The notes under the pieces are model-generated. The model was given only the letters and a program-made list of their open reading frames with translations. It ran no database searches and was not told the origin of the DNA. The translations under genes were made by a program, and so were the position numbers. From Bacteroidota bacterium (GTDB lineage Bacteria > Bacteroidota > Rhodothermia > Rhodothermales > UBA10348): a DNA stretch of 56,865 bases. Shown here in pieces: positions 4,690 through 42,218 of this stretch. Position 1 is the stretch's first letter; each line of letters begins with the position of its first letter. The stretch is from assembly GCA_029262855.1 (NCBI GenBank), contig JAJCYP010000039.1:1-56865 (forward strand). Direction: 5' to 3'.

Positions 4690-5736
4690 ATGAGAACAAC
4701 ACTCCTCTTTCTGGCCGTCGCATTCGTCCTGACGGCACCTGCGGGCGCCCAGACCTTCGGGGATACGGGCGATGGGACACAGACGCTGACCAAGGTCGCC
4801 ACGACCTCGGCGCAGTTCCTCAAGATCGGCGTCGGCGCCCGGGCAATAGGCCTCGGCGGCGCGTTTGTGGCTGAGGCATCAGACCTGTCGGCCATGTACT
4901 GGAATCCCGCCGGACTCGCCCGGATGCCGGGGTCTGGCGTTCAGTTCAACCATACGCAGTACCTGGCGGACGTCTCGTACAGCGTCGCCGCGTTCGGCGT
5001 CAGTCTCGGGGCCATTGGCTCCGTGGGTGCCTCTCTCATCTACCTCGATTCAGGGGACATGGCCGTACGGACCACCTCGCGGCCCGGCGGCACCGGCGAG
5101 CGTTTCAAGGTTCAGGATCTGGCGCTACAACTGACGTACGGCCGCAATCTCACAGACAGGTTCTCGCTGGGTGCCAATCTGAAGTACATCCGCGAGCAGA
5201 TCTGGCACTCGTCCGCGTCTGCGATGGCCTTCGATGTCGGGGTGCTCTTTACCACGCCCTTCAGAGCGCTCCGCCTGGGTGCGAGCATGGCCAACTTCGG
5301 CCCGAAAATGCAGATGACCGGGCGTGACATTCTCTTCAGTACCGACCCCGCCGTAGACGCGTCGGGAAATGTTGAGATCGTCAATGCCGAGTTTCTGACC
5401 GACGAGCATGCGCTGCCTCTGATCTTTCGGGTCGGGCTGGCCTGGGATGCGGTGACACTCGGTGACCATCGTGTCGTCGTCCTTTCCGATGCCGCCCATC
5501 CCAACGACAACAGCGAATACCTGAATGTCGGCAGCGAGTACTCCTTCCGGGACATGATTTTCCTGAGGGGCGGGTTTCGCAACCTGTTCGAGACCGATGG
5601 AGTACAGGGTATCACGCTCGGCGGCGGTCTGAACCTGCGCGTGGATCGTTCGGTGAGGATTCGGGTAGACTATGCGTACGCAGATTTCGGCATTCTCGAT
5701 CAGACCCACTGGTATACGTTCAATCTGATTTTCTGA
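4690..5736 (+). CDS. PorV/PorQ-family outer-membrane protein
   Basis: Protein of 348 aa with a signal peptide (MRTTLLFLAVAFVLTAPAGAQ) followed by the family signature: AQFLKIGVGARAIGLGGAF, then MYWNPAGLARMPG, the N-P-A-G-L motif found in FadL/PorV-type barrels. The remainder alternates as an outer-membrane beta barrel and ends with Phe (YTFNLIF). In Bacteroidota, PorV is the T9SS outer-membrane shuttle that delivers substrates with C-terminal sorting domains to the attachment complex; PorQ-like paralogues are also common. Its position directly between two genes with T9SS-type C-terminal domains agrees with a T9SS link, but similarity alone does not separate PorV from a generic paralogue. Confidence 0.85.
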   Translation: MRTTLLFLAVAFVLTAPAGAQTFGDTGDGTQTLTKVATTSAQFLKIGVGARAIGLGGAFVAEASDLSAMYWNPAGLARMPGSGVQFNHTQYLADVSYSVAAFGVSLGAIGSVGASLIYLDSGDMAVRTTSRPGGTGERFKVQDLALQLTYGRNLTDRFSLGANLKYIREQIWHSSASAMAFDVGVLFTTPFRALRLGASMANFGPKMQMTGRDILFSTDPAVDASGNVEIVNAEFLTDEHALPLIFRVGLAWDAVTLGDHRVVVLSDAAHPNDNSEYLNVGSEYSFRDMIFLRGGFRNLFETDGVQGITLGGGLNLRVDRSVRIRVDYAYADFGILDQTHWYTFNLIF

Positions 5737-35513: not shown

Positions 35514-35548
35514 CAGGAACAACTGGCGCTGAGTCAGCCCCGAAATTA

Positions 35549-35587
35549 GAGAATGCCGCCCAGCAAAAAGTGCTGGGCGGCATTCTC
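35549..35587. terminator. Strong hairpin between subtilase lipoprotein and esterase genes
   Basis: Perfect 17-bp stem with a 5-nt loop (arms 35549-35565 and 35571-35587). It is downstream of the minus-strand subtilase lipoprotein gene and just upstream of the esterase start, so it probably ends the former transcript. The following minus-strand bases (TCTAATTTCG) are only weakly U-rich. Confidence 0.65.
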
Positions 35588-35606
35588 AAGGTCAAGTGAC
35601 AAACCA

Positions 35607-35631
35607 GGCATCGGACCCCTCTTCCGATGCC
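35607..35631. terminator. Second hairpin, tandem with the previous one
   Basis: Perfect 9-bp stem (GGCATCGGA/TCCGATGCC) with a 7-nt loop. On the minus strand it is followed by TGGTTTGTCACTT. Lies 90 nt after the subtilase lipoprotein stop and could act as the primary terminator. Confidence 0.5.
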
Positions 35632-35654
35632 CGGCGCGACACTCATCCTGAGTT

Positions 35655-35708
35655 GTGAGACAGTTCCGGTGTCTCAGCGGTGTCTCGCGAGTGTCTCAAA
35701 TGAGACAC
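35655..35708. promoter_or_regulatory. Array of TGTCTC/GAGACA words (operator cluster candidate)
   Basis: Five copies of a TGTCTC-type word in 54 bp, in alternating orientation: TGAGACA at 35656-35662, TGTCTCA at 35670-35676, TGTCTCG at 35681-35687, GTGTCTCA at 35691-35698 and TGAGACAC at 35701-35708. The last two form a perfect palindrome, GTGTCTCA-AA-TGAGACAC. The same word recurs at 42100-42126 upstream of a sigma-54-type promoter. Confidence 0.55.
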
Positions 35709-35720
35709 CCCTTCTGACAC

Positions 35721-37049
35721 CTACTTGAGTGCAACACACGTAGAAGTCGTGTTACCCGGAGCATTCGTGACGCAGTCTGATGAGGATATGCGCTTCAATA
35801 CCTCTTCGTATCCAAGCCCAGGCTCCCTGGCCAGAACCGCGGCGGCTGCCCCAGTTACATGGGGGACTGCAAAGGATGTACCCGAACCCAGCAGGAGGAC
35901 GATTTTCTTTTTATAAATCTTCCCCAATGAGAGAATATCTTCGCCTGGAGCCAGGATATCGACCTTCGGACCACGATTGGAGAAGGACGAATGCTCGTTG
36001 TCAGGTCCGTGAGATCCGACGGTGATGACCCCCCTGGCGTGTGCCGGAGTCACCTTGTTGGCGTTCAATCCATCATTTCCGGCAGAGACAACAACGATGA
36101 CCCCAGCGTCGCTGGCCTCCGTCAGGGCCTCGTCCAGGGCGGTTTCCCAGGTCACTCCGATGTAGGCACCGAAGCTCAGCGACATGATGACCGGCGTGGC
36201 CGGATCGGCCTCCTTGCGCTCAATAATGGTGTTTATGGCATCGATTGCCACAGACATCGAAGTCATGCCGAACTTGTTGAGGACGACCATATTGTGGACC
36301 GAGACACCGGGCGCGACGCCGAGTACGCCGGTATCGTTGTCCAGCGCGGCAGCCGTGCCCGCGATGTGGTAGCCGTGGGTAAAGACATCGGAGCCTGTCT
36401 TCTTGATGAACTCGATTTCCTCCACCAGATTGACGTCGTCCTCGTTGACACGGGTGTCGAGTATGTACAGGTGCACACCAGAGAGTTGAGCCTCCGAAAG
36501 ATCGGCCAGTGGCGCTCCGATGTGAGGGACACCCCAAGGGATCGTTTGATTGCCCCCTGCCGGAGACATGCTTACGCTCTCCGCCTGAACCCTCAAATCT
36601 GGCTCAATTTGGAAGATTTCGGGCTGCGAGAGCAGCTGGCTCAAGGCGGGCATGATGATGTCCTGCCCGGGAAGAAGCCCGAATGTGCTCTGGATTTCCG
36701 CCTTGTCCAACTGGACCGCAGCGGCAAGCTCGGTGACGTCACCGGAGAGGCTGTGGCGACGCAGAAAACCGTGTCTGCGCAGGAAACCGTGGCGTCTCAG
36801 GAAGCCATCGGCATCGCCCTTCGGCTCCAGAAACTTGATGATTATCCGGATCTCGTCTGGATCGTCTTTCCCGGCTGGCGTTGTCAGCGCGGTCTGCGTC
36901 AGGAGGTGGCCGTTTATCAGCTTGGCGTCGCCGAGAACCTGCTCTTCAAGCTCCATCGGTACAAACTCCGGTGCCGAGATCGGCTCCAGACATCCGGATA
37001 ATGGGATCAAAGAACCAATCAGCACGCAAGTGGAAGCAATGCGGTTCAT
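35721..37049 (-). CDS. Subtilase-family lipoprotein with FLRRHG repeats
   Basis: Protein of 442 aa starting at ATG 37049. This start gives a lipoprotein signal (LIGSLIPLSGC, C20); an in-frame extension to 37115 does not. The catalytic triad is D198 (YILDTRVNED), H225 (THGYHIAGTAA) and S392 (GSGTSFAVPHVTG), with oxyanion N325 (SAGND). The canonical HGTH reads HGYH and GTSMA reads GTSFA, so it is atypical but complete. In the propeptide-like region residues 83-100 are three tandem FLRRHG units. A sigma-54-like promoter lies 46-60 nt upstream of the start. It is divergent from the propeller sensor kinase gene. Confidence 0.88.
   Translation of the reverse strand: MNRIASTCVLIGSLIPLSGCLEPISAPEFVPMELEEQVLGDAKLINGHLLTQTALTTPAGKDDPDEIRIIIKFLEPKGDADGFLRRHGFLRRHGFLRRHSLSGDVTELAAAVQLDKAEIQSTFGLLPGQDIIMPALSQLLSQPEIFQIEPDLRVQAESVSMSPAGGNQTIPWGVPHIGAPLADLSEAQLSGVHLYILDTRVNEDDVNLVEEIEFIKKTGSDVFTHGYHIAGTAAALDNDTGVLGVAPGVSVHNMVVLNKFGMTSMSVAIDAINTIIERKEADPATPVIMSLSFGAYIGVTWETALDEALTEASDAGVIVVVSAGNDGLNANKVTPAHARGVITVGSHGPDNEHSSFSNRGPKVDILAPGEDILSLGKIYKKKIVLLLGSGTSFAVPHVTGAAAAVLAREPGLGYEEVLKRISSSDCVTNAPGNTTSTCVALK
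36753..36806 (-). repeat. Three tandem 18-bp repeats (FLRRHG)
   Basis: Units at 36753-36770, 36771-36788 and 36789-36806 encode FLRRH(G/S) three times in the subtilase lipoprotein. The units differ mostly at synonymous positions, which suggests the peptide is being kept. Confidence 0.8.
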
Positions 37050-37092: not shown

Positions 37093-37110
37093 CTACAAAT
37101 GCGGTGCCAA
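37093..37110 (-). promoter_or_regulatory. Sigma-54-like promoter of subtilase lipoprotein
   Basis: Minus strand TTGGCACCGCATTTGTAG: a perfect -24 block (TTGGCAC) and a -12 block TTGT where the consensus is TTGC, with the correct GG-N10-G spacing. Predicted transcript start near 37083 leaves a leader of about 34 nt before ATG 37049. A TGTCT half-site lies upstream at 37222-37226. Confidence 0.5.
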
Positions 37111-37296: not shown

Positions 37297-40200
37297 ATGC
37301 TTGCAATTCTTCTAGTCGCCGGCCTCATAGCCGCGGCTCCCTTCGCTGAGCCCTCTTCTATTGACCCTGGCAAAACCATGAGCCAGCGGGTCGTGGACCA
37401 CTGGACCGTTGAGGACGGCCTGCCTCAAAACACGATTACCTCCATCGTGCAAACCGGTGACGGTTACCTGTGGTTGGGGACCGAGCAGGGGCTGGTCCGC
37501 TACAACGGCCTCCAATTCGTTGTGATTGATCTGGAGCCGGTGTCATCGTCAATTGAGGTGATTTCGCTCGCGCAGGACGCCGACGGACGCTTGTGGGTCG
37601 GCACTCTGGCTGGAGTCGTGATTGTAAATGGCGGCACTCGGGCTGCCTTGCCGCACCTGCCACCTTCTGCTCGGGTGGAAGCCCTGGCGAGGGACGGCTC
37701 CGGTGGTATGCTTGTGGGTACATGGGCTACCGGTCTTTTTCGCTGCACGGTGGACGCCTGCAGCCGCATGGACGACTCGCGCGCGGGATCGCTTGGCCGA
37801 ATTCAGAGCATCGTACGTGTTGCTTCCGCAACATGGGTGGGCACGGACACCGGGCTCTTTTCGCTGGTCGGCGATGAGGTCCTCCCCCGAGTCCCGGACC
37901 TGTCCGTCTCCTCCATGGTTTCCCCGGATGGCGAGACCATCGTGGTCGGTTTCCGAAATGGAAAGGTGGGCGTACTCGGGGCGGACCACGAGTTTGAACT
38001 TGTATCCGAGCCCGGACTCTGGCCGAATGAGAGGATCTGGAGCATGATGGCCGACAAACACGGATCCATCTGGTTTGGCATGGAGAATCAGCGCCTCTTT
38101 CGTCAGACCCCCAGCGGGCTGGATGTTTTTGGCGAGGCAGCGGGCCTGGAGGGTACTCGCGTCCTGTCGATCTATGAGGACCGGGAAGCAAGCGTCTGGG
38201 TCGGGACAGAGGGAGGCGGCCTTCTCCGATTCAGGACTGGCGCCATCACGACCTTGGACGAGGCGGCGGGACTATCCAATGGTTATGTCACCACGGTACT
38301 CGAACTCCGGGACAAGTCCGTCCTCGCCGGTACGTTCGGCGGCGGCGTTCACCGGGTGGATCCGCATGCACTGACGGCCGAGTCCATCTTTCCGTCACTC
38401 CCCAGCAAGAACGTAACGGGCCTCCTTGAAGATGATGAAGGTCGGGTCTGGGTTGCGACCATCGATGAGGGCCTGTTCAGCATGGCCGGGACCCGAGCTC
38501 TCCCGACGGCCGGACTTCCATCCAGCGCGGTCTACGCGCTCAGGCCCGGTGCAGGAAACAGCATTTGGGTCGGTACCGATGCCGGACTGGCCGAAATAAC
38601 GCCATCCGGCGTCCAGGTCTACACCACGGCGGATGGTCTGGGTTCGGACTCTATCGTGGACGTGGAGGCCAGCCAACCTGGCATCGTCTGGGTGGCCACC
38701 TACGGCGGTGGCCTTACCCGACTTAGCCGGAACAGGCCGCCCGTAACGTACACCACAGAAGACGGCCTGGGCAGTGATCTGGTCAGCGCACTCCATCTGG
38801 ACGCCGACGGCACGCTCTGGATCGGCACCCTTGGCGGAGGTCTCTCCTTCCTCCGGGACGATGTCATTTCGACGGTTTCCGTTCGCGATGGGCTCTTCGA
38901 CCGCACCATCTTCCAGATTCTTGAGGATGGCCTCGGAAACCTGTGGATGGGTTCCAATCGCGGAATCAGCCGAGTTTCGAAGCAGGATGTGCTGACCTAT
39001 GAGGCCGGCACGAGCGCACCCATTCCCTTTGCCTCTTTTGGCACCGACGATGGACTCAAGTCGCCGGAAATCAATGGGGGTGCTCAACCCGCGGGCTGGA
39101 AAAGCTCCGACGGCCGCCTCTGGTTTCCAACCATTTCCGGAGTCGCAGTTCTGGATCCGGCGGACCTGCGCCGAAATACCGTGCCACCGCCCGTCGTGAT
39201 CGAGCAGATCGAAGCCGATGGGGTCCCGATTCCCGTGGCAATCGAGCAGGTAGAAGCGAACGGCATCCCGATGCGCTTCGCGGAGGATGTCGAGTTTCCC
39301 GCGGGGACCCGGCGAATCGAGTTCAAGTTCGCCGCTCTCAGCCTGATTGACGCGTCGGCGATCACCTATCGATATCGTCTAAGAGGTGCGGAGACGGCCT
39401 GGTCCTCTCCCATCGGAGGCAACACGGCCTCCTATACGTTCATCGAGCCTGGTGAGTACACGTTCCAGGTGATCGCCGCCAACAACGATGGCGTCTGGAA
39501 CGAAGAGGGCATCTCGCTGGCGTTCAACCTCAAGCCCTATTTCTACCAGACCTCGTGGTTCTGGATGCTGCTGGCCTCGACCTTCTTCCTGGCGGGAGCC
39601 TGGGCACTGCGGGTCCGGACGCGCCAGCTGCAGCATCAGCGGGAGCAGCTCGAGAGGATGGTGGATGCCCGAACTCGTGATGTGATGGCTGCCAAGGACC
39701 AGATCCAGGCCCAGTCGGACGCGTTGCGTGCCTCTCTCCGGGAAAAGGACGTGTTGCTGCGCGAGGTGCATCACCGGGTCAAGAACAATCTCCAGATGAT
39801 CTCGAGCCTGCTCCAGCTTCAGTCTCGCCAAGTTGAATCCCCCGCGACCAAGTTGCTTTTTGATGAGTGCAGAAACAGGATATACTCCTTCTCCATGGTT
39901 CACGAAAGGCTCTATCGGGCGAAGGACATCGCGCATTTTGATTTCGTGGACTACCTGACCGGACTTTCTGAACAACTGGTCCGCTCGGCCGGTGATGATG
40001 GAGCGGACATTCGGCTCACGGTCAGCGTCGAGCCCGGCGCAATGGACGTCGACCGTGCGATTTCGTGCGGACTGATCGTGACCGAGTTCGTCACGAATGC
40101 CCTTCGCCACGCCTTCCACTCGAAGCCCGATGGCACCATTTCGGTCACCTTCTCGCGCAAAGACGAGATGGGAGTTCTTACGGTTCTGGATGACGGCTGC

Positions 40201-40395
40201 GGAATACCGGATCTCGGTGCGCGGGCCAACCGCGATGGCCTGGGCCTTCGGCTGGTCGATGCACTCGTGTCGCGATTGCGGGGAGACCTAGTTGCCACAC
40301 AGCGGCCGAAGGGCGGCACCAGGTGCCAGGTCTTATTCCCCTTGGGCTCCGAATTACACAAGCTAACAACGCCCCAACGGGTAGCCGCTCTATGA
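37297..40395 (+). CDS. Two-component sensor kinase with propeller, Y_Y_Y and HisKA_2 domains
   Basis: Membrane sensor kinase of 1032 aa. Signal peptide ([19 protein letters not shown]), then about 600 residues of two-component propeller repeats ([36 protein letters not shown]), a Y_Y_Y domain at about 680-745 ([12 protein letters not shown]), one transmembrane segment ([18 protein letters not shown], near 755-775), a coiled coil, a HisKA_2 dimerisation domain ([19 protein letters not shown]825/H826) and HATPase ([32 protein letters not shown]). The propeller faces the periplasm and probably senses a glycan or peptide. The stop overlaps the next gene's ATG (ATGA), so the two are translationally coupled. 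A 14-codon tandem micro-duplication lies at 39193-39276. Confidence 0.92.
39193..39276 (+). repeat. 14-codon tandem duplication in the sensor kinase
   Basis: Two adjacent 42-nt units encode [14 protein letters not shown] and [14 protein letters not shown], between the propeller and the Y_Y_Y domain. It is diverged, so not a very recent event. Confidence 0.7.
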
Positions 40396-42080
40396 GCATG
40401 CGCAATCGTGTGATGATTGCTGAGGACGAGGTCTTCACGGCCCTCGAACTCCAATTTCACCTCGAACAATTGGGTTACGAGGTGGTGGATCTGGTTTCCT
40501 CCGGTGAGCAGGCTGTCAAGCGGGCCATCGCCTTGAAGCCGGACTTGCTCATGATGGACGTCCGTCTCGAAGGCGAGGTGGATGGCATCGATGCCTTCAG
40601 GGCGATCCGGAAAGAGCATGACGTCCCGGTCATTTTCCTGACAGCCTTTGGCGACGAAGAAACCATCAGTCGTGCCAAGGAGTCTGGCGCCTTCGGCTAT
40701 ATCCTGAAGCCCTTCAAGGAGCGTGAGCTGCGGGCCATGATCGAAGTGTCGCTCAATCGACACGAACGCCTTCACGACCTGCAGAAGAGTCACGATGACC
40801 TGCAGGAAATCCTGGACGGCCTGCGTCTCGGCACCGCCATGACGGACGGCTCGGGGCGGATCACCTTTATCAGTCGCGTTGCCTGTCGCCTGCTGGGGAT
40901 GTCGGAGGAGACCGCTCAAGGCGGGATGTGGTACCACATCTTCCCGTTCAATGAAGCGACCCTGAACTCGCTGCGGTCGATCGCCGCCGAACCGGACACC
41001 GCCCCTGCGGAGAAGATCACAACCACGGTCACGCACCGCAACGGAAGATCCTACTACATGGAGATCGAGGTCCAGCCGGACCCGAGAAACAGCCTCCGAC
41101 GAATCTTTGTCTTCTACGATGTCACGGAAGTACATGACCTTCGCCGGCAGCTGAATCAGGATTCGCATTATCACGACCTGATTGGCGAAAGCGCCAGCAT
41201 GAGGACCGTCTTCTCGCAGATCCAGGCTGTGGCCGTGCTGGACACGACTGTTCTGATTGAGGGCGAAACCGGAACCGGAAAAGAACTGGTCGCGCGAGCC
41301 ATTCACCGGGCCAGCCACCGGTCCTCGGAGCCATTCGTCGCGGTCAACTGCGCGGCTCTCACCGAGTCGCTCGCCGCGAGTCAGCTTTTTGGTCACAAGA
41401 AGGGCTCCTTCACTGGAGCTGTCAGCGATGAGCGCGGGTTTTTCGGAGCCGCGAACGGTGGCACCCTGTTTCTGGACGAGATCGGCGACATTCCTCTGGA
41501 CGTGCAGGTGAACCTGCTTCGTGTTCTTGAAGAAAGGACCGTAACCCGGGTAGGTGAGACGCACCCACGAAAGGTGGACGTCAGAATCGTTGCCGCATCG
41601 CACCGAAGCCTTCCCGAAGAGGTTGAGGCCGGGCGATTCCGGGCCGACCTTCTTTACCGCATTCGCGTGGCACGTGTAGACCTGCCGACTCTCCGGGAGC
41701 GGACCGGAGACATCCCTATTCTGGTTCAGAGCTTCCTCTCGAAGTTCTGCACGCGGATCGGCAAGGACGTGAGCGACATCAGCTCATCGGCCATGCGCGC
41801 GATGATCGACTATCCGTGGCCCGGAAACGTTCGAGAACTCCGCAACACGGTGGAGTACGCCGTGATACGCTGCAACGGCTCGGTGATCCAGCCCGCGGAC
41901 CTCCCTCCGGAGGTTCGTAATGCGGCCACGGTCACTCCCGTGGTCATCGGCTCCTCCCGAAAGGAGCGCCTCGTTGCTGCCTTGAACCACACCAACGGCA
42001 ACCGAAAAGCGGCCGCCGAACTCCTCGGAATCAGCCGCGCCACCTTGTATCGCCGACTGGCCGAAACCGGCATCGAGTGA
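40392..42080 (+). CDS. Sigma-54-dependent response regulator (receiver-PAS-AAA+-Fis HTH)
   Basis: Transcription activator of 562 aa from ATG 40392, which overlaps the kinase stop as ATGA; an upstream GTG at 40323 would lie inside the kinase gene. Receiver domain about residues 6-120 (VMIAEDEV, phospho-acceptor D56 in LLMMDVRL, K in YILKPF), PAS about 140-255, sigma-54 AAA+ domain about 270-500 with Walker A GETGTGKE (291-298), the sigma-54 contact loop GSFTGA (338-343, canonical GAFTGA) and Walker [12 protein letters not shown], then a Fis-type HTH ([20 protein letters not shown]). All parts needed to activate sigma-54 holoenzyme are present. The paired kinase is HisKA_2, while classic NtrC-type partners use HisKA. 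Confidence 0.95.
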
Positions 42081-42099: not shown

Positions 42100-42126
42100 G
42101 TGTCTTATGAACAGACACATGAGACA
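42100..42126. promoter_or_regulatory. Upstream activator site candidate (TGTCT/AGACA palindrome)
   Basis: TGTCTTATGAACAGACA at 42101-42117 is a 5-7-5 inverted repeat, directly followed by a further TGAGACA half-site at 42120-42126. It lies 77-103 bp upstream of the -24 element of the sigma-54-type promoter at 42201, the usual distance of enhancer sites. Confidence 0.55.
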
Positions 42127-42200
42127 CCATTGAAACACTTCACCGGGTCGAGGGAACGTGGTCCGGCATCAGCCGGTCCATTTCAGGTGTTTCGGATTGA

Positions 42201-42218
42201 TTGGCATGGTATTCGCGG
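42201..42218 (+). promoter_or_regulatory. Sigma-54-type promoter
   Basis: TTGGCATGGTATTCGCGG: the -24 GG (42203-42204) and -12 GC (42215-42216) are separated by exactly 10 nt. The -24 block TTGGCA is perfect; -12 reads TCGC against consensus TTGC. Predicted start near 42228 leaves a leader of about 36 nt before ATG 42264. Confidence 0.6.

Follow-up and report, generated by a model that had tools for sequence, protein, structure and literature searches.

A TGTYTCA word array behind a subtilase lipoprotein gene as a candidate downstream enhancer for a two-component sigma-54 response regulator

Bacterial regulators that bind repeated or palindromic DNA words follow a few well-described patterns. 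Textbook sites of NtrC-type regulators are palindromes, PhoB/OmpR-type regulators are more typically associated with direct repeats recurring every 11 bp, and the parS site of ParB is the single palindrome TGTTTCACGTGAAACA. RocR of Bacillus subtilis is not known to be a two-component response regulator. To our knowledge, natural downstream enhancers have rarely been described in bacteria. One of them is found at rocG of B. subtilis, where the RocR site is located 1.5 kb downstream of the sigma-54 promoter, in the intergenic stretch that follows the gene; the site is reported to act on the next operon as well, and that operon, rocABC, carries its own -12/-24 motif (PMC4941409).

The locus described here lies in a window of 56,865 nucleotides (the whole stretch of DNA analyzed) and combines features of several of these systems. 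An array of short words is located between a putative esterase gene and a subtilase lipoprotein gene, next to an operon spanning positions 37297 to 42080 that encodes a histidine kinase and a sigma-54 response regulator, P0003 (Table 1). The arrangement of the words, their distribution among related genomes, and the promoters beside them suggest that the array is probably bound by P0003, and we lean toward the reading that it serves as a P0003 enhancer acting on the subtilase gene from downstream.

Table 1. Features of the window around the word array
Feature	Position	Strand	Details
Putative esterase gene P0002	34374-35513	-	PF00756
Hairpin between array and esterase	35549-35587	-	17 bp, perfect
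Five-word array	35656-35707		Plus strand TGAGACA N7 TGTCTCA N4 TGTCTCG N4 TGTCTCA N2 TGAGACA
TGTCTC/GAGACA word 1	35657-35662	-	
TGTCTC/GAGACA word 2	35670-35675	+	
TGTCTC/GAGACA word 3	35681-35686	+	
TGTCTC/GAGACA word 4	35692-35697	+	
TGTCTC/GAGACA word 5	35702-35707	-	
Perfect 8-2-8 palindrome	35691-35708		GTGTCTCA-AA-TGAGACAC; fourth and fifth words
Subtilase lipoprotein gene P0001	35721-37049	-	PF00082; proposed target
Sigma-54-type -24/-12 promoter of subtilase	37094-37109	-	TGGCACCGCATTTGTA; p = 0.003; 60 bp before ATG
Propeller sensor kinase gene	37297-40395	+	Pfam domains Reg_prop, Y_Y_Y, HisKA_2, HATPase_c
Sigma-54 response regulator gene P0003	40323-42080	+	Response_reg, PAS, Sigma54_activat, HTH_8; proposed binder; start codon provisional
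Second, smaller word cluster	42120-42194		TGAGACA N4 TGAAACA (42120-42137), TGTTTCG (42188-42194); behind regulator
Sigma-54-type promoter of post-regulator gene	42202-42217	+	TGGCATGGTATTCGCG; p = 0.003
Conserved gene, 289 aa	42264-43133	+	No Pfam match; second proposed target

The five-word array and its conservation

The 54-bp stretch at 35655 to 35708 holds five TGTCTC/GAGACA words, all within 35657 to 35707, in agreement with the count of an earlier sequence-only reading, and the perfect 8-2-8 palindrome that it had pointed out is present. The same reading described the words as alternating; both orientations do occur, but the actual order is - + + + -. Three copies run head to tail with a period of 11 bp, a repeat that it had missed along with the second cluster behind the response regulator gene and the heptamer TGTYTCA, which describes the word better than TGTCTC does. 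The array lies outside genes, as had been stated, between the subtilase stop codon (35721 to 35723) and the esterase ATG (from 35513 on the minus strand). The single word TGTCTC is not enriched across the whole window (26 observed versus 34.7 expected); its clustering is far denser than chance allows, as had also been claimed, since 200 dinucleotide shuffles of the window gave a maximum of 2 words per 54 bp versus the 5 observed, and chance clustering was therefore rejected. A repeat dispersed through the genome was likewise rejected, as the palindrome has a sole perfect copy in the 4.74-Mb genome.

A scan of the area detected neither a sigma-70-type promoter nor a T-run terminator. The hairpin between the array and the esterase gene, matched by a hairpin at this position in the same-genus genome G001, is the probable end of the subtilase transcript, although the terminator scan, needing a T run, gave no call. 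The intergenic region also contains an imperfect 21-bp inverted repeat (35595 to 35643) with a core, TCGGACCCCTCTTCCGA, that G001 shares without change; this 17-bp core occurs exactly only in G001 and the window's own genome, G000, and with one mismatch in five further genomes among the 114 of the order.

Conservation of the words in close relatives had been proposed as a check, and the words are kept in G001, the sole close relative able to answer. The G001 subtilase protein is 72% identical to P0001, and the array (L045, 3730 to 3781) lies between the same esterase and subtilase genes. In the alignment of the window with G001, the words are identical at 34 of 35 positions, the spacers at 13 of 17, and the esterase-side flank at 74 of 141. 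The other genome of the genus, G002, is uninformative on the array; its best subtilase has 36% identity, and its operon contig begins just before the kinase gene. The downstream position of the array is known from only two genomes, G000 and G001. One scan of named genomes found no relative of the subtilase, and another, for the exact triple repeat, recovered 46 stretches. In a phylum-wide search for the three-word pattern, 11 of 395 genomes matched, with perfect matches only in G000 and G001, and four of the other nine carried the parS core.

The palindrome might be read as a degenerate parS bound by ParB, as it has the same kind of half-word and the same 2-bp spacing, and the G001 palindrome, TGTCTCACGTGAGACA, is only two changes from parS and has the CG center. 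The window copy, TGTCTCAAATGAGACA, lacks that center, however, and a parS would leave unexplained both the three 11-bp direct repeats and the link to the kinase/regulator operon described below. The wider pattern matches 73 of the 114 genomes of the order, and among the matches listed most are plain parS located elsewhere in the genome; in G093, some 1.8 Mb separate the operon from the parS match. A parS origin of the array appears extremely improbable.

Word clusters and the kinase/regulator operon

The pattern GTGTCTC-N4-GTGTCTC was present in 6 of the 114 genomes of the order, versus 2 of 114 for a reversed-pattern control. It stood directly before a window-like kinase gene in G081 and G102 (by tblastn) and in G082 (by eye), and the gene after the kinase in G081 and G102 encoded a sigma-54 response regulator. 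Relatives of P0003 were found at E ≤ 1e-100 in 17 of the 114 genomes (best 12 candidates per genome scored), with a kinase domain just before the regulator in all 15 loci read besides the window and G001. Word clusters accompanied 13 of these 17 regulator loci, comprising ten loci of another family, designated f13, the window, G002, and G001, the last counted for the array behind its subtilase gene. In f13, 10 of the 13 regulator loci have at least two TGTYTCR words between the kinase gene and a divergent lipoprotein gene; these loci cannot be treated as independent, since six of the ten come from one genus. Behind the regulator gene, G002 has three words with an 11-bp period at the position of the smaller cluster of the window, and in G001 a single exact word is accompanied, at a distance of 11 bp, by a partner with one mismatch.

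Of 18 genomes with the operon, 11 contain the relaxed pattern TGTYTCA-N4-TGTYTCA, versus 8 of 96 without it (p = 2e-6); when the discovery genus is omitted, the counts are 8 of 15 versus 8 of 96 (p = 1e-4). The reversed form of the pattern occurred in 2 of 114 genomes. The 18 genomes are the 17 above plus G082, whose contig shows the array and the kinase gene and then ends, and leaving G082 out gives p = 1.5e-5. As a counterpoint, in the genus g22 (G090, G093, and G036) the N4 match is located at a second lipoprotein locus and not at the operon. The association between array and operon would also fit any other regulator of the same distribution.

By the rule used, four regulator loci have no word cluster. 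Repeated words of other kinds are present in two of these (G009 and G079); in the other two, G086 and G087, no repeated words were found, and the kinase gene appears by eye to follow closely on another gene. In G079 (L144, about 1130 to 1185, with the regulator turned to the plus strand), TGTGTCA-like words with a 10-bp period precede the kinase gene and the recognition helix of the regulator reads SRST rather than the usual SRAT, which may possibly reflect a joint change of site and protein. In G009 (L133, about 5000 to 5190, turned likewise), the region behind the regulator contains repeated GTGTCCGTTTGACAC-type palindromes within a tandem duplication, with just one of the usual words. In the three g22 genomes, word pairs precede another acidic lipoprotein gene (L152, L153, and L154, near 1501 to 1518), the one in L154 having a weak DUF4382 match. 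The regulator matches of the same genomes G090, G093, and G036 (L078, L079, and L080) each contain one in-frame stop, perhaps the junction between kinase and regulator.

The spacing of the words is strongly patterned. For words on the same strand, with one mismatch allowed, 16 stretches, among them loci selected for their arrays, gave 19 pairs at 11 bp and 8 at 22 bp, with no other distance exceeding 4. In ten loci chosen by their regulator alone, 11 bp accounted for 8 pairs and 22 and 13 bp for 3 each, with single pairs at eight further distances. For the word, spacing, and promoter counts, the limits of the intergenic stretches were set by eye with the words already in view. The layout in G080 nearly repeats that of the window, with spacings between its five words of 2, 4, 4, and 6 compared with 2, 4, 4, and 7. 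Because 11 bp is about one helical turn, the words would face one side of the DNA.

Similar words were seen at other genes of the genus. Arrays in which all words point one way are located upstream of a second subtilase gene in G000 (contig C54; L044, 4490 to 4541) and in G002 (contig C50; L057, 143 to 203), and the C54 array also precedes, by eye, a gene for an ECF-like sigma factor. A pair, TGTTTCG-N4-TGTCTCA, lies about 20 bp before the possible start codon of a secreted-protein gene (L219 and L220, near 1501 to 1518) and is conserved between G000 and G002.

Heptamers arranged head to tail with an 11-bp period (the 19 pairs at 11 bp and 8 at 22 bp) could be direct-repeat sites of a PhoB/OmpR-type regulator encoded elsewhere, activating or repressing nearby genes, and the uniform orientation of the words in C54 and G002 C50 is in keeping with such a binder. 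The words nevertheless track the kinase/sigma-54 regulator operon and adjoin sigma-54-type promoters, which require an enhancer-binding protein, and no gene for a PhoB/OmpR-type regulator was noted beside the arrays when the flanks were read by eye. A regulator of this type is thus an unlikely binder.

The array could also act as RNA, its words forming 3'-end hairpins that stabilize or terminate the subtilase transcript. The minus strand of 35540 to 35723 folds better than its shuffles (z = -9.6; -8.3 in G001), the array part alone does so as well (z = -4.0 in the window and -6.2 in G001), and in both genomes the final two words of the transcript pair with each other. The first word, however, pairs with the second in the window and with the third in G001, so the words are better kept than their pairing. 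In the comparison folds counted (C54, G002 C50, and G102, with L134 left out), the one-way arrays gave z of about 0 and G102 gave -0.4, no better than chance, and the f13 arrays lie upstream of genes. We consider a function as RNA very unlikely. A known RNA family was rejected, the one Rfam match scoring 19.7 bits versus a gathering score of 53.1.

Sigma-54-type promoters and the proposed target

RpoN is encoded in 107 of the 114 genomes, including G000 (PF04552, E = 7.9e-60). Promoters were scored by sequence match with a textbook-style -24/-12 matrix. In f13, the arrays sit upstream of sigma-54-type promoters of the divergent lipoprotein gene, and a site resembling TGGNRCG-N4-TTG lies between array and gene in most loci. 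The product resembles an acidic lipoprotein by eye; of two such proteins searched against Pfam, one had, besides DUF5666, a weak sub-threshold match to DUF4382 and the other had no match. Across the proposed target regions, 10 of 15 scored p < 0.05 on the expected strand versus 1 of 15 on the other strand (lipoprotein, 5/10; subtilase, 2/2; post-regulator, 3/3), the loci being related rather than independent. The other five lipoprotein regions miss p < 0.05 with this matrix, and that of G081 has no good sigma-54-type site. With all regions counted, 11 of 19 reached p < 0.05; the four additional regions were the two esterase regions (neither reaching it), C54 (p = 0.48, no), and the second subtilase gene of G002 (p = 0.04, yes). 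The -12 box reads TTGT, TTGA, or TCGY, not TTGC. An alternative matrix gave p < 0.03 in 14 of 15 regions, but it was tuned after the sites had been seen and is not relied on.

The subtilase promoter is conserved in G001 (TGGCACCTGCTTTGTA; p = 0.023), where it lies 59 bp before the ATG, and its distance to the array is 1,414 bp in the window and 1,416 bp in G001. The G002 contig breaks inside what is possibly the same -24 element (TTGGCAC). The promoter of the post-regulator gene scored p = 0.010 in G001 and p = 0.013 in G002, and both this promoter and the 289-aa gene are kept in the two genomes.

The sequence-only reading looked for a target only on the esterase side, where it found no good sigma-54 promoter, and the scoring agrees with it there: the best site between array and esterase had p = 0.84 in the window and p = 0.52 in G001. 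P0003 could still bind the array with the esterase gene as its target, through an unrecognized promoter, or the array could serve the regulator as a spare site or a decoy. Some 140 bp separate the array from the esterase ATG, a spacing usual for enhancers, and the esterase-array-subtilase neighborhood is preserved in G001. Against an esterase target, no sigma-54-type site separates array and esterase in either genome, the flank on that side is only 74/141 identical, and the hairpin resembling a transcript end stands between the two. This arrangement appears rather unlikely.

The conserved promoter, which the earlier reading had not considered, is instead on the subtilase side, at 37109 on the minus strand. 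Like the lipoprotein gene of f13, the subtilase gene is divergent from the kinase gene and has a sigma-54-type promoter. No word was found between the subtilase and kinase genes in G000 or G001; in both genomes the array is behind the subtilase stop codon and none is before the promoter. Since the subtilase gene takes the place of the f13 lipoprotein gene, with no word upstream and an array 1,414 bp downstream, the array can be read as a downstream enhancer, with the subtilase gene as the presumed target. Two further features of the window are in keeping with this reading: a gene for an enhancer-binding protein (P0003, with Response_reg, Sigma54_activat, and HTH_8 domains) is linked to the sites, and a -24/-12 promoter, recognized by sequence match and with a -12 box departing from TTGC, lies within looping distance of the array. 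The earlier reading suggested three roles (a silencer, an enhancer acting over distance, or the binding site of another regulator), of which the distant enhancer is the best fit.

In the mechanism we propose, phosphorylated P0003, encoded 4.6 kb from the array and acting as the partner of the adjacent kinase, would bind the TGTYTCA words. Several words, repeated every 11 bp on one face of the helix and closed by an opposed word, would allow P0003 to assemble its ATPase ring on the array, and looping of the DNA would then open the subtilase promoter, with the array working 1.4 kb downstream of that promoter and past the stop codon of the gene. We infer that P0003 is most likely the binder, the subtilase gene the target, and activation rather than repression the effect; we rate an RNA hairpin, a parS, or a PhoB-type site as less likely. 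A previously uncharacterized kinase/regulator pair would thereby gain a predicted binding word and predicted promoters, with a secreted subtilase, acidic lipoproteins, and the 289-aa protein as proposed targets.

Comparison with known systems

No paper on such a word or such arrays was found in the open-licence literature of PubMed Central, and a survey of sigma-54 regulons (PMC12316311) contains, by term search, no mention of a downstream enhancer or of Salinibacter, Rhodothermus, or Rhodothermota. Both sigma-54 enhancers and enhancers acting from downstream belong to known kinds of element; what would set this locus apart as a variant is the lattice of direct repeats together with the switch of side from one family to the other. 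The locus might tentatively be taken as an undescribed two-component/sigma-54 circuit, in which heptamers form a head-to-tail lattice of 11 bp with an opposed end word and the enhancer has been relocated downstream. It is conceivable, though we hold it with reserve, that the genus of the window has kept the regulator while placing the enhancer behind its target instead of in front. As the array is apparently upstream in one family and downstream in another, with the same regulator, such a relocation is open to testing.

The parS site of ParB resembles the array in its half-site word and 2-bp center, but the arrays are not single palindromes, the window copy has no CG center, and their location is tied to an operon. 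The array is like a Pho box of the PhoB/OmpR type in repeating a 7-bp word every 11 bp, and unlike it in having a linked regulator and promoters of the sigma-54 type and opposed words at its ends. NtrC-type enhancers are matched by multiple sites distant from -24/-12 promoters and by a sigma-54 AAA+ response regulator with a Fis-type helix-turn-helix; the sites themselves differ, being for the most part heptamers in head-to-tail order at 11-bp intervals, closed by an opposed word, rather than separate palindromes. The subtilase locus shares with rocG a sigma-54 promoter with an activator site behind the gene, predicted here from sequence, and differs from rocG/rocABC in that the esterase gene following the array shows no -12/-24 motif. 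Unlike RocR, the proposed binder, P0003, is a two-component response regulator.
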